Assembly: GCF_011393335.1 (NCBI RefSeq)
Contig: NZ_CP049865.1
Span: 2,250,722 to 2,314,721 of the forward strand
Origin: Propioniciclava coleopterorum
GTDB lineage: Bacteria > Actinomycetota > Actinomycetes > Propionibacteriales > Propionibacteriaceae
Length of the DNA stretch: 64,000 nucleotides
Reading direction: 5' to 3'
Translations under genes and position numbers: made by a program
Shown: in pieces, positions 7,094 to 10,994 of the stretch
Numbering within the stretch: position 1 is the stretch's first letter
Layout: each line of letters opens with the position of its first letter
The notes under the pieces: generated by a model
The model's database searches: none
The model's input: the letters and a program-made list of their open reading frames with translations, nothing else
Told to the model about the DNA's origin: nothing

Positions 7094-7124
7094 TTGCGCG
7101 ATCGCCCGCCAGTGGTGCTACAGT
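7094..7124 (+). promoter_or_regulatory. Candidate promoter of the nanE-PTS operon
   Basis: TTGCGC (7094-7099) and TACAGT (7119-7124) are 19 bases apart. Transcription would start near 7131, about 20 bases before the antiterminator site and 110 bases before nanE. Confidence 0.45.
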
Positions 7125-7150
7125 CGCCACGGCGCATCGCGCCAAGGTCA

Positions 7151-7179
7151 TCGGGATTGTGACCCACGGCAAAACCCGA
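7151..7179 (+). promoter_or_regulatory. Ribonucleic antiterminator (RAT) site for the BglG/LicT-type regulator
   Basis: The leader contains GGGATTGTGAC and, four bases later, CGGCAAAACCC. This matches the conserved halves of LicT/BglG RAT sites (GGATTGT...GGCAAAACC). It can fold with TCGGG/CCCGA as lower stem, TTGT/GGCA with A pairing as middle stem, and both sets of conserved internal-loop bases; the upper stem is shortened to a C-G pair with a CCAC loop. The cognate RNA-binding protein is encoded at 10125-10994. Downstream, GAGACGTGTG (7178-7187) can pair imperfectly with CACGCACGTTTCT (7215-7227), a possible terminator that the RAT fold would prevent; that part is less certain. Confidence 0.75.
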
Positions 7180-7242
7180 GACGTGTGCCCGCACCACCGA
7201 CGGTCCGGGCGTTCCACGCACGTTTCTGCCGAGGAAGTGACG

Positions 7243-7935
7243 ATGACACGATCATCTCTTTCGGAGCGTCTCGCGGGCGGCCTCGTGGTCTCCTGCCAGG
7301 CACTGCCCGGTGAACCGCTCCACACCGAGACCGGCGGCGTCATGCCGCTGATGGCGATCGCCGCGCAGCGCGCCGGCGCCGTCGCGATCCGCTCCAACTC
7401 CGCCCGCGACGTCGCCCAGATCAAGGACGCCGTCGACCTGCCCGTCATCGGGCTCATCAAGCGCGAGTACCCGCCGTTCGAGCCGTTCATCACGGTGACG
7501 ATGGAGGAGGTGGACGCGCTGGTCGAGGCCGGCGCGGACGCCATCGCCCTGGACTGCACGCTGCGCGAGCGTCCGGACGGCCTCACTCCGGCCGCGTTCG
7601 TCGCCCGGATCCGGGAGCGCCACCCCGGCGTCCCGCTCATGGCCGACATCGCCACCTACGAGGAGGGGATCGCGGCCGCCGAGGCGGGCGTCGACCTCAT
7701 CGGCACCACGCTGAGCGGCTACACGCCGCAGTCGGCCGGCGCACCGATACCCGATCTCCCGCTGGTGGAGCGGCTGGCCCGCGACACCGAGGTGCCGATC
7801 GTGGCCGAGGGGCGCATCCGGCGACCCGAGCAGGCGCGGGCGGCCCTGGACGCCGGCGCGCACTGCGTGGTCGTCGGCGGCGCGATCACGCGTCCGCTGG
7901 AGATCGCGACCGAGTTCGTGGACGCCCTGCGCTGA
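7243..7935 (+). CDS. nanE: N-acylglucosamine-6-phosphate 2-epimerase
   Basis: The 230-residue TIM-barrel enzyme converts ManNAc-6-phosphate to GlcNAc-6-phosphate. Family features include ETGGVMPLMAIAAQRAGAVA, the central VIGLIKREYP, then DCTLRERP and the C-terminal phosphate site VVGGAITRP. The ATG follows GAGGAAGTGACG. It is the first gene of an operon with a PTS permease, suggesting that the imported sugar is ManNAc or an aminosugar entering as ManNAc-6-phosphate. No nagA or nagB lies in the window. The leader carries a RAT site, so expression should depend on the antiterminator three genes downstream. Confidence 0.92.
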   Translation: MTRSSLSERLAGGLVVSCQALPGEPLHTETGGVMPLMAIAAQRAGAVAIRSNSARDVAQIKDAVDLPVIGLIKREYPPFEPFITVTMEEVDALVEAGADAIALDCTLRERPDGLTPAAFVARIRERHPGVPLMADIATYEEGIAAAEAGVDLIGTTLSGYTPQSAGAPIPDLPLVERLARDTEVPIVAEGRIRRPEQARAALDAGAHCVVVGGAITRPLEIATEFVDALR

Positions 7936-8066: not shown

Positions 8067-9611
8067 GTGTTCAAGACACTCCAGAAGGTCGGCAAGGCGT
8101 TCATGCTGCCGATCGCCATCCTCCCGGCGGCGGGCCTGCTGCTGGGCATCGGTGGCGCCCTGTCCAACCCCAACACCGTCGCGGCGTTCCCGGCGCTCGG
8201 CGTCCCCGCGCTCCAGGTGGTCTTCCAGATCATGGCGGCCGCGGGCAGCGTCGTGTTCGCCAACCTGCCGCTGCTGCTGTCGATCGGCCTGTGCATCGGG
8301 CTGGCCAAGCGCGACAAGGGCACCGCCGCGCTGGCCGGCATCACCGGCTACCTCGTCATGGTCGGCACCATGGAGGCCCTGGTCACCCTCAACAACCCCG
8401 AGGGCTCGATCGACACCGGCGTGGTGGGCTCGCTCGTCATCGGCGCCGTCGCCGTGTGGCTGCACAACCGCTACTACAACATCCAGCTGCCGGCCATCCT
8501 GGGCTTCTTCGGCGGATCGCGCTTCGTCCCGATCGTCACGGCTTTCGCGGCGATCTTCGTGGGCGTCGCGTTCTACTTCATCTGGCCGCCGATCCAGCAG
8601 GGCATGGTCGCCGCCGGCACCGCGATCGCGAGCTGGGGCCCGATCGGCACGTTCTTCTACGGCTTCCTGATGCGCCTGTCGGGCGCGGTCGGCCTGCACC
8701 ACGTCATCTACCCGATGTTCTGGTACACCCCGCTCGGCGGCACCGAGATCGTCAACGGCGTCAGCATCTCCGGCGCCCAGAAGATCTTCTTCGCCCAGCT
8801 GGCCGACCCCAACCACGTCGGGCTGTTCACCGAGGGCACGCGGTACTTCGCCGGCCGCTTCGCCACCATGATGTTCGGCCTGCCGGGCGCCTGCCTGGCG
8901 ATGTGGCAGTGCGTGCCGAAGGATCGCCGCGCCCGGTACACCGGCCTGTTCCTGTCCGTGGCGCTCACCTCGTTCGTCACGGGCATCACCGAGCCGATCG
9001 AGTTCATGTTCCTGTTCGTGGCGCCGTGGCTCTACGTGATCCACGCCTTCCTCGACGGTGTCTCGTTCTTCATCGCCGACGTGCTCAACATCAACATCGG
9101 CAACACGTTCTCCGGCGGCGTCATCGACTTCCTGTTGTTCGGCGTCCTGCAGGGCGAGGACCGGACGCACTGGCTGTACCTCATCCCCATCGGGCTGCTG
9201 TGGTTCGGCCTGTACTACGTGACGTTCCGCTTCCTGATCACCCGCTTCAAGGTCGCCACCCCCGGCCACCTCGACGACACGCTGGCGGCGGCGGCCACCG
9301 ACGCGGGCCAGGCCGTGAAGGGCTCGGACGCCGACGCGGCCCCCGCCGAGGGCGAGGGCACGGCGCTGGAGCAGGAGGCCGACCAGGTGCTCACCGCCCT
9401 GGGCGGACCCGACAACCTCGAGGACCTCGACGCCTGCATCACCCGACTGCGGGTCTCGGTCAAGGACCCCGCGCAGGTCGACAAGGCGGCGCTGCGCCGC
9501 ATCGGGGCGGCCGACGTGTTCGAGGTGCGGGGCGGCGTCCAGGCGGTGTTCGGCGGGAAGGCCATCCTGTACAAGAACATCATCAACGAGAAGCTCGGCA
9601 TCGAGGACTGA
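8067..9611 (+). CDS. PTS system EIICB component, glucose/N-acetylglucosamine family
   Basis: This 514-residue permease imports and phosphorylates a hexose or aminosugar using phospho-EIIA. Residues 1-400 are the EIIC membrane domain (about ten segments) with ITEPIEFMFLF, the conserved substrate-site Glu motif of the Glc/GlcNAc family. An acidic Ala/Glu linker follows, then an EIIB domain from about 445 with the phospho-accepting Cys457 in DACITRLRV. The start is GTG with a weak GAAGAGAAAG upstream. EIIA is encoded separately next door. GlcNAc or ManNAc specificity is inferred from nanE and cannot be read from the sequence. Confidence 0.92.
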   Translation: MFKTLQKVGKAFMLPIAILPAAGLLLGIGGALSNPNTVAAFPALGVPALQVVFQIMAAAGSVVFANLPLLLSIGLCIGLAKRDKGTAALAGITGYLVMVGTMEALVTLNNPEGSIDTGVVGSLVIGAVAVWLHNRYYNIQLPAILGFFGGSRFVPIVTAFAAIFVGVAFYFIWPPIQQGMVAAGTAIASWGPIGTFFYGFLMRLSGAVGLHHVIYPMFWYTPLGGTEIVNGVSISGAQKIFFAQLADPNHVGLFTEGTRYFAGRFATMMFGLPGACLAMWQCVPKDRRARYTGLFLSVALTSFVTGITEPIEFMFLFVAPWLYVIHAFLDGVSFFIADVLNINIGNTFSGGVIDFLLFGVLQGEDRTHWLYLIPIGLLWFGLYYVTFRFLITRFKVATPGHLDDTLAAAATDAGQAVKGSDADAAPAEGEGTALEQEADQVLTALGGPDNLEDLDACITRLRVSVKDPAQVDKAALRRIGAADVFEVRGGVQAVFGGKAILYKNIINEKLGIED

Positions 9612-9629: not shown

Positions 9630-10115
9630 ATGTGGAACCCGTTCGCCAAGGCATCCGCCAAGGACATGGAGTCGGTCCACCGCCCCGTCGAGGGTCGGCT
9701 GCTGCCGTTGGAGGAGGTGCCCGATCCCGTGTTCGCCAAGCGCACCATGGGCCACGGCTTCGCCGTCGAGCCGACCGGAGGCACCTTCCGCGCCCCCGTC
9801 GCCGGTGAGCTGATCCTGCTGGCCAAGACGCTGCACGCGTACGCGATCCGCACCGACGCCGGCGCCGAGGTGTTGGTGCACGTGGGCATCGACACGGTCA
9901 CCCTGAGGGGCAAGGGCTTCGCGGCCCTCGCCGCGACGGGGGACCGCGTCGAGGTCGGCGACCCGATCCTGACCTGCGACCTCGACGCGGTGGGGCAGCA
10001 GGTGCCCTCGCTCATCACGCCCGTGGTCCTCACCAACGGGAAGGCGTTCACCCTGTCCGAGCCCGACCTGACGGCGGGTCCGGACGCACCGGTCGCCACG
10101 CTGGCGAAGGTCTGA
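9630..10115 (+). CDS. PTS EIIA component, glucose type
   Basis: The 161-residue cytoplasmic protein passes phosphate from HPr to the adjacent EIICB. The active His84 is in VLVHVGIDTV, and His69 in TLHAYAIR is the partner His of the EIIA-Glc fold. The gene starts 18 bases after the EIICB stop behind GGGAGAAGGAG, so the two are translated from one message. In this operon it probably serves the local permease. Whether it also takes on a global role like Crr cannot be told from sequence. Confidence 0.93.
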   Translation: MWNPFAKASAKDMESVHRPVEGRLLPLEEVPDPVFAKRTMGHGFAVEPTGGTFRAPVAGELILLAKTLHAYAIRTDAGAEVLVHVGIDTVTLRGKGFAALAATGDRVEVGDPILTCDLDAVGQQVPSLITPVVLTNGKAFTLSEPDLTAGPDAPVATLAKV

Positions 10116-10124
10116 CCGGCGGCG

Positions 10125-10994
10125 ATGATGCGCGGGGGGCGCGCGACGGTCACGATCCGCCGCATCTACAACAACAACGTGGTGTTGGGGGCCGACCCCG
10201 ACGGCACGGAGGTGGTGCTGCTCGGTAAGGGGCTGGGCTTCCAGCGGAAGCCCGGCGACCGCGTGGACCCCGCCGGCGCGCAGCGGTTCGTGGCGCAGGG
10301 GCCCTACAAGGCCGCGGCGGTCGCGACCCTGCTCAGCGACGCCACCCTGGAGGAGGCGGCGACGGCCCGGGACATCGTGGCGCTCGCCCACGAGCGGCTC
10401 CGGGTGCCGGTGAGCCAGGGCTTCCTGCTGCCGGTGCTGGACCACCTGTCCTTCGCCGTGCGGCGCGCCCGGGAGGGGGTGAAGGTCGACATCCCACTGC
10501 GCTGGGAGGTCGCCCAGCTCTACCCGCGCGAGGCCGAGGTCGGACGCGAGGCGGTGGCCCTGGCCGGCGACCGCCTCCGCGTCCGGCTGCAGGAGGACGA
10601 GTGGGTCGCGTTCGCGCTGCACTTCATCAACCAGCAGTGGGTCGGCGGCGACCTGAGCAAGACGGTGGCGATGACGGACGCCATCACCGGAACGTTCGCC
10701 CTGCTGGAGGAACTGTGGGGGCGTCCGCTGGACCAGACGTCGGTGAGCTCGGCCCGGTTCGTGACGCACCTGCGCTACCTGTTCGTGCGGGCGATCGAGG
10801 GGCGGCAGCTGGTCGGCTCGGGCATCGACGTGATGGGCGCGGTCCAGAGCGTCTACCCCGAGGCCGCGGAGGCGGCCCGCCGGGTTGCCCAGCTCATCGA
10901 CGCCTCGGTCAAGGGCAGCCTCACGACCGAGGAGGTCGCCTACCTCGCGCTCCACACGGGACGGCTGTACGCCGAGGTGCACTACCCGGGCTGA
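10125..10994 (+). CDS. BglG/LicT-type transcriptional antiterminator with PRD domains
   Basis: The 289-residue regulator has an N-terminal CAT RNA-binding domain (residues 9-48; IRRIYNNNVVLGADPDG then LLGKGLGFQRKPGDRVD), followed by PRD1 (about 70-170, with DHLSFAVRR and ALHFINQQ) and PRD2 (about 180-285, with FVTHLRYLFVRAI and YLALHTGRL). PRD His residues are present for phosphorylation by HPr and the EII proteins. Family knowledge says that the dimer binds RAT hairpins and blocks terminators when sugar is present; a matching RAT lies at 7151-7179 in this same operon. Two ATG codons in a row occur at the start, and the spacer from EIIA is only nine bases. Confidence 0.93.
   Translation: MMRGGRATVTIRRIYNNNVVLGADPDGTEVVLLGKGLGFQRKPGDRVDPAGAQRFVAQGPYKAAAVATLLSDATLEEAATARDIVALAHERLRVPVSQGFLLPVLDHLSFAVRRAREGVKVDIPLRWEVAQLYPREAEVGREAVALAGDRLRVRLQEDEWVAFALHFINQQWVGGDLSKTVAMTDAITGTFALLEELWGRPLDQTSVSSARFVTHLRYLFVRAIEGRQLVGSGIDVMGAVQSVYPEAAEAARRVAQLIDASVKGSLTTEEVAYLALHTGRLYAEVHYPG

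Follow-up and report, generated by a model that had tools for sequence, protein, structure and literature searches.

Against which downstream element does the RAT antitermination site in the nanE leader of Propioniciclava coleopterorum act? The first-pass annotation of the 64,000-nt stretch of DNA analyzed here (the window) proposed that this leader holds both halves of a LicT/BglG RNA target with a shortened upper stem, that the fourth gene of the operon encodes the matching CAT-PRD-PRD protein, and that the site opposes a transcript-end hairpin. Judged from the letters of the DNA, the RAT and its regulator are real. For the group of related leaders as a whole, our modelled folds suggest that the freeing of the first gene's ribosome site by LicT is a better-supported reading than a terminator.

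The nanE operon and its compact RAT

The features of the leader and of the operon are as follows:

7116..7124, + strand: weak extended -10-like promoter element, TGC-TACAGT (read from the sequence)
7131..7143, + strand: 5' hairpin GGCGC-AUC-GCGCC, close behind the expected transcript start (alignment, RNAalifold)
7147..7182, + strand: extended compact RAT hairpin (leader alignment, RNAalifold, and model R1, which gives 57.1 bits and to whose building the window leader contributed)
7154..7176, + strand: RAT core GGATTGTGACCCACGGCAAAACC (sequence, pattern search of the window's own genome, relatives)
7181..7223, + strand: anti-RAT helix P2, ACGUGUG (7181-7187)/CGCACGU (7217-7223) (RNAfold)
7223..7227, + strand: UUUCU, the sole U-rich stretch after P2, with 4 T in the best 8-base window (T counts)
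7227..7231, + strand: UGCCG, putative anti-Shine-Dalgarno strand, complementary to CGGCA at 7167-7171 in the loop and 3' half of the RAT (MFE fold)
7231..7237, + strand: Shine-Dalgarno sequence of nanE, GAGGAAG (sequence)
7243..7935, + strand: nanE, N-acetylmannosamine-6-phosphate 2-epimerase (Pfam PF04131, E 1.8e-65; NCBIfam PRK01130, E 7.7e-87)
8067..9611, + strand: PTS EIICB, glucose/GlcNAc family (PF02378/PF00367; best match TIGR02002 with 474 bits, below its cut-off of 591.8)
9630..10115, + strand: PTS EIIA, glucose family (PF00358, E 8.2e-44)
10125..10994, + strand: LicT/BglG-type regulator, CAT-PRD-PRD (Pfam CAT_RBD, PF03123, and two PRD, PF00874)

The four genes follow the order nanE-ptsBC-ptsA-licT, with the regulator as the last gene. 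The CAT-PRD-PRD assignment of its product was confirmed by matches to the Pfam families CAT_RBD (E 1.9e-14) and PRD (E 3.2e-23, in two stretches), both over the cut-off, and its best NCBIfam match is LicT (8.8e-60; the 202 bits of this whole-length match lie below the equivalog cut-off of 300). Six solved structures are related to the regulator by sequence (e.g., 6twr, LicT 1tlv/1h99, and 3rio), and these relatives take in LicT, SacY, and a ptsGHI antiterminator. The genome of the window encodes four CAT-domain proteins. By eye, we identified histidines in the regulator segments DHLSFAV, ALHFIN, THLRYL, and ALHTG, which we take to be the phosphorylatable PRD histidines of PTS control. Phosphorylation of the PRDs by the PTS inhibits proteins of the LicT family, and the presence of substrate ends this inhibition.

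Both RAT halves, GGATTGTGAC ... GGCAAAACC, are found within 23 nt at 7154-7176, 89 nt upstream of nanE, and the conserved halves GGATTGT and GGCAAAACC fold into a hairpin that contains two internal loops. As the first-pass annotation stated, the upper stem is short: in the window, as in the other leaders of an 11-leader alignment, a single C-G pair (7163/7168) and a 4-nt loop stand in place of a stem of several base pairs. The upper stem of a RAT is not known to be directly contacted by the protein. In the Arcanobacterium leaders, the same C-G pair closes a GNRA-type loop (GCAA or GAAA), which fits a single-pair upper stem. The lower stem is extended by GUC/GAC (7147-7149 with 7180-7182), and the extended RAT of the window reads GUC-A-UCGGG-A-UUG-U...C(CCAC)G-G-CAA-AA-CCCGA-GAC, with CCYGA as the 3' arm of the lower stem in the consensus of the 11 leaders.

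Across these 11 leaders, the lower stem and UUG/CAA are 100% paired with one-sided changes only, and the single two-sided change that RNAalifold detects in the RAT replaces U-A by C-G in the GUC/GAC extension of the Micropruina leader L012. The bound-state structure was formed in 89.5% of cells as compared to 30-50% when the partners were slid by 1-3 columns. Pairing of GUCAU with AUGAC was rejected as the cause of the conservation of GUCAU, because RNAalifold pairs GUC with GAC in the lower stem of the RAT and because GUCAU is also present in Arthrobacter-type leaders, which have no AUG at that place. No Rfam family matched the leader at E<=5. Upstream of the RAT, the 5' hairpin is paired in 90.7% of cells over the 11 leaders and shows two-sided changes at two of its five pairs. 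A consensus promoter scan of the leader found no promoter, and several relatives present TATGTT or TACGTT at a place similar to that of the -10-like element. Downstream of the RAT, P2 encloses an inner hairpin, GCCCG (7187-7191)/CGGGC (7206-7210), with G7187 fitting either helix; the equivalent of P2 in the relatives is GAGACG/CGUCUU. The ribosome site carries CCGAGG in 10 of the 11 aligned leaders and CCGAAGG in L019.

Distribution of the leader across genomes

The pattern GGNTTGTNNCN{2,12}GGCAAAACC matched only once in the 3,671,901 bases of the window's genome, at the RAT itself, and the reversed-pattern control did not match at all. The same exact pattern was found in 4 of 147 genomes of the family, with one control match in another genome. 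With a looser RAT pattern, 34 of 391 genomes of the order were matched, with no control match among the matches listed, and a second site was found preceding another PTS/LicT operon in the window's own genome. Few genomes carry the compact pattern: it occurs in 1/296 genomes of the class, this one being the genome of the window, in 1/299 genomes of family f39, which we judged to be a chance match, in 2/198 genomes of one genus, and in none of the genomes of the other sets (0/80, 0/15, and 0/16). A model of the compact RAT matched 23 places in 21 of 198 family genomes at E <= 0.001, and 12 of the 21 readable matches carry a T-run. RAT-like sites are not rare in this family.

We gathered 32 loci with relatives of the regulator. 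As anticipated by the first-pass annotation, the motif is conserved upstream of orthologous nanE operons in several genera, and the same compact RAT leader was found in Micropruina (locus L012, which has no EIIA match), Aeromicrobium, Cryobacterium, Pseudarthrobacter, and another genus of the window's family. The later-found nanE leaders are L092, from the genus to which the Pseudarthrobacter leader belongs, L098, from a second genome of the genus of L006 and L012, and L105, L106, L109, and L110, all from the said other genus of the window's family. L006 and L093 were removed as duplicates of L012 (identical place) and L016 (identical leader), respectively. The leader is kept without nanE in three Arthrobacter-type loci (L019, L020, and L022) and in two Arcanobacterium loci, and L118 keeps the RAT leader with an internally shortened nanE. 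Read from a near-cognate ACG, L019 and L022 have an open frame that continues into the PTS gene. The record of L019 (NZ_JADHDY010000007.1) is named Sporosarcina (Bacillota), yet it groups with Arthrobacter in the LicT tree and is perhaps a contamination or mislabelled.

The regulator tree contains 22 sequences, the window and 21 of 29 loci (L009, L010, L025, L026, L027, L033, L036, and L041 were left out, and L092 and the later-found loci lie outside it). The window clusters with 14 other regulators from loci without a T6 run in the leader (support 100/99); L011 and L021, which have different RAT tops, belong to this clade. Among the seven rows outside the clade, a RAT was found only at L032, so this tree is no evidence for classical RATs in the outgroup.

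Several other candidates were discarded by eye. L091 was a chance match, and L077, the sole match of a loose motif among 17 further places scanned on both strands, is not a leader. The motif GGATTGTGACTC...CTTGCGGCAAACC of L044-L050, from seven genomes (7.4-9.7 Mb) of one genus, has flanks that are not RAT-like; these flanks are similar among the seven genomes, and the motif is RAT-like by its letters only.

Terminator or ribosome site downstream of the RAT

All seven nanE leaders from the RAT-model search of the family presented 3-5 T in their best downstream 8-base window, and 12 of the 14 other readable matches presented 6-7 T; the remaining two belong to a second type of LicT operon and have 3-4 T. 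This count is unselected and covers 21 of the 23 places matched by the model, with L115 and L117 outside since the pattern could not read them. Similarly, the 15 leaders scored as nanE-type show 4-5 T in their best 8 bases; nine of these stand directly before nanE, and L019, L020, L021, L022, L023, and L034 have no adjoining nanE. The 6-8 T of the 19 leaders that we call classical are not an independent finding, because these leaders were picked for carrying a T-run. The longest T run among the nanE-type leaders is TTTTT, after the inner hairpin of the Micropruina leader L012, and L014 has TTTT after its own. The hairpin at 7178-7227 that the first-pass annotation had named exists as a fold, but only 4 T accompany it, no intrinsic terminator with a U-tract overlapping the RAT 3' half was found in the window, and a consensus terminator scan after the RAT returned no terminator-like site. 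This last negative is weak because the same scan overlooks the clear T6 terminator of L009, and the T counts are the better evidence.

L009 constitutes a built-in positive control: a classical RAT and a T6 run (4856, + strand) lie upstream of another CAT-domain gene of the same genome. Classical leaders of the family can be textbook-like, as in GGGGCAAGACCTGAGATGCAC...GTGCGTCTCGGGTCTTTTTT. The second LicT operon of the window's genome (L011) encodes a PTS IICBA and a LicT that is 59% identical, with a RAT at 9569-9607 on the - strand (G000:C1 750568-750606). In L011 and its counterpart L052 in genome G316 (L094 in the wider set), the RAT top is CTGAAGAAG and there is no T-run. Both share a downstream hairpin, GCTCGG...CCGGGC, which does not overlap the RAT, and neither showed a significant ribosome-site effect against 60 foreign sites. 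Two long-stem RATs, L032 (2221, + strand) and L053 (1501, - strand), are likewise without a T-run of at least 4 in the next 75 bases.

Most relatives do form an alternative fold, but it lies over the ribosome site and not over a terminator: in unconstrained folds, L012 excepted, the nanE ribosome site is enclosed in one long hairpin of which the RAT strand is the 5' arm. The opposition of the RAT to a transcript-end hairpin is not supported by these folds, nor by the low T counts of all seven leaders. We then used a swap test in which each leader received the ribosome sites of other genes in place of its own (100 sites, or 150 for five later leaders), and the opening of the ribosome site upon forcing the RAT was compared to this foreign-site null for 3' ends at +6 and +25. 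Because the foreign pool also contains the nanE sites of these loci, the test errs slightly on the conservative side. Opening was significant (p<=0.05) in 10 of 17 nanE-type leaders at +6 (8 of the first 11, L092, and one of the later five) and in 10 of 17 at +25 (seven, one, and two, respectively), although these leaders are related and the independent cases are nearer three lineages than seventeen. None of 17 classical leaders was significant at either end (the 19 minus L054 and L061, since only 17 yielded a start that passed the filter), with a median opening of -0.10 (+6) and -0.11 (+25) as compared to +0.43 and +0.40 for the first 11 nanE-type leaders. An earlier swap test with 200 foreign sites gave the same picture.

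L092 and the five later leaders (L098, L105, L106, L109, and L110) were found after the hypothesis had been framed. L092 opened by +0.43 (p 0.01) at +6 and by +0.35 (p 0.03) at +25. The p values at the two ends were 0.000/0.033 for L110 and 0.053/0.047 for L105, and opening was not significant at either end for L106 (0.27/0.06), L109 (0.15/0.10), and L098 (0.13/0.17), nor was any RAT-induced opening seen for L012. The arrangement is most clear-cut in L105, L106, L109, and L110: in all four, the RAT segment AACUUUCGGCAAU, comprising the loop and the 3' half, pairs with GUUGCCGGAGGU over the Shine-Dalgarno sequence in an uninterrupted helix of 11-13 pairs (compared to about 307 foreign sites, p 0.000, 0.000, 0.000, and 0.003), and their ribosome sites are unusually closed in the unbound state at +25 (p(free) 0.013, 0.013, 0.007, and 0.000).

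Other tests of complementarity were less uniform. A first plain duplex test of the RAT arm against the ribosome site gave p<0.05 in 2 of 11 leaders (L016 and L019), and in a later one, 7 of 17 leaders reached this level with one or both of the two arms (34 tests, uncorrected). The alternative structure was formed in 84.9% of cells, compared to 26-48% when slid. The long-range helices with the ribosome site showed no two-sided compensatory change in the aligned leaders, where the RAT side cannot vary freely, and RNAalifold on the 11 leaders returned only the 5' hairpin and the RAT and not the alternative fold. The pairing persists in the Arthrobacter-type leaders L019, L020, and L022 over a near-cognate start (ACG or GTG), with nanE gone, which a pure model of nanE translation does not explain.

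In the window, the energy advantage of the alternative fold over the RAT at +6 is larger than that obtained with foreign sites (gap of 8.4 kcal/mol, p 0.01; p 0.11 at +25). Opening induced by the RAT was not significant (0.12 at +6, p 0.12; 0.00 at +25); depending on the 3' end chosen, the start codon becomes more open or more closed, and the Shine-Dalgarno sequence opens at none of them. The pairing consists of CGGCA/UGCCG and of pairs at the start codon, and its duplex p values of 0.088 and 0.244 against about 307 foreign sites are not significant. Because this signal is weak, we infer from the relatives that the window works as they do, with a short pairing of its own.

Alternatively, the leader might be a case of canonical antitermination at a U-poor terminator, in which P2 and the inner hairpin (7181-7223) would stop transcription before nanE, possibly helped by a Rho-like or NusG-type factor, and RAT-bound LicT would prevent this. 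We regard this explanation as possible but somewhat doubtful. P2 sits where the terminator stem of classical leaders sits (CCTGAGACG...CTCAGGTCTTTTTT) and overlaps the extended RAT stem, and it is followed by UUUCU in the window, while L012 has T5 after a hairpin and L014 has TTTT. The persistence of the leader without nanE in Arthrobacter-type loci is also compatible with a terminator, and the LicT family is known for antitermination, BglG/LicT proteins being described as transcription antiterminators (PMC12502629, PMC9981650). However, the U-tract is weak or absent in all seven nanE leaders of the family and in the 15 nanE-type leaders, the window's own genome retains T6 after a classical RAT in L009, and the complementarity to the ribosome site would be left unexplained.

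This same complementarity makes it improbable that LicT binding to the RAT mainly alters the stability of the mRNA or the processing of the leader by an RNase, since anti-Shine-Dalgarno pairing is not predicted by such a role; the base-paired 5' hairpin at the expected transcript end would suit it, and in the NagY system, a RAT leader is reported to be processed by RNase III (PMC12502629). We consider it very improbable that the motif arose by chance or is a functionless remnant in this genome. The window's own pairing to the ribosome site is weak, as a remnant would have it, but the exact pattern matches the genome only once, the full operon with licT is kept, and the RAT letters and the lower stem are conserved across families. 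In the window, either a translation switch or a U-poor terminator may operate, and it is the relatives that tilt our reading toward the former.

A candidate translation switch and known systems

We propose that the nanE leader is a CAT/RAT two-state switch that has been rewired to translation initiation and responds to the operon's own LicT-type protein, a reading to which, from modelled folds, we give a little better than even credence. When LicT is inactive, the RAT-forming strand would pair downstream: its 3' part would be taken up into a long anti-RAT hairpin, and the nanE ribosome-binding site would be paired with its 5' arm, with its loop and 3' half, or with both, such that nanE would be poorly translated. 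This effect would presumably extend to the PTS genes and licT by coupling or polarity. In the presence of substrate, the inducer being probably ManNAc or a related amino sugar, the PTS would stop phosphorylating the inhibitory PRDs of LicT, and the LicT dimer would then clamp the compact RAT and free the ribosome site. More broadly, a clade of actinobacterial LicT proteins may have left antitermination, with the compact RAT acting as an anti-Shine-Dalgarno strand, the protein activating translation initiation of nanE/PTS, and the ribosome site replacing the U-tract of an ancestral RAT-terminator; this wider scenario is tentative and we rate its chances at slightly under even.

The locus resembles the LicT/BglG/SacY/GlcT antitermination systems (Bacillus, E. 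coli, and Enterococcus nagY) in that a CAT-PRD-PRD protein is encoded beside a PTS, the RAT presents the halves GGATTGT and GGCAAAACC, and the alternative hairpin overlaps the RAT. It differs from them in its upper stem of one pair with a 4-nt loop, its GUC/GAC-extended lower stem, its weak or missing U-tract, and, in most relatives, an alternative fold that covers the ribosome site. The classical RAT leaders of the family (e.g., L056-L072 and L009) share with the nanE leaders the lower stem CAGG/CCUG and the place of the anti-RAT helix, but their upper stem is longer and they end in a terminator with a T-run. TRAP of Bacillus subtilis is a single RNA-binding protein that controls both transcription and translation through accessibility of the ribosome site (PMC4347634); its protein and RNA are unrelated to those studied here, and TRAP blocks the ribosome site whereas LicT binding would open it. 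RAT-like sites that mostly do not overlap terminators, and for which other roles were suggested, are attributed to Gordon et al. 2015 (doi 10.1159/000375263) in PMC12502629. Together with TRAP, such sites are the nearest published precedents that we found. Relative to the sites as summarized there, the nanE leaders have a defined alternative target, a ribosome site that lies beside the RAT and is paired in relatives. Among the matches listed in open-licence literature, we found no BglG-family protein that controls translation and no account of this nanE leader.

Masking of the ribosome site by the RAT strand would offer a concrete alternative role for RATs that lack a terminator, and the nanE leaders would be an example of how a terminator switch could become a translation switch. 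If true, this would be an unusual mode of action for the LicT/BglG family and would provide a short protein-responsive RNA part for GC-rich bacteria.

Finally, three loci (L099, L100, and L103) present short-top RATs of 25 nt in all that are accompanied by a full T7 run. It is possible that these represent intermediates between classical and compact RATs.
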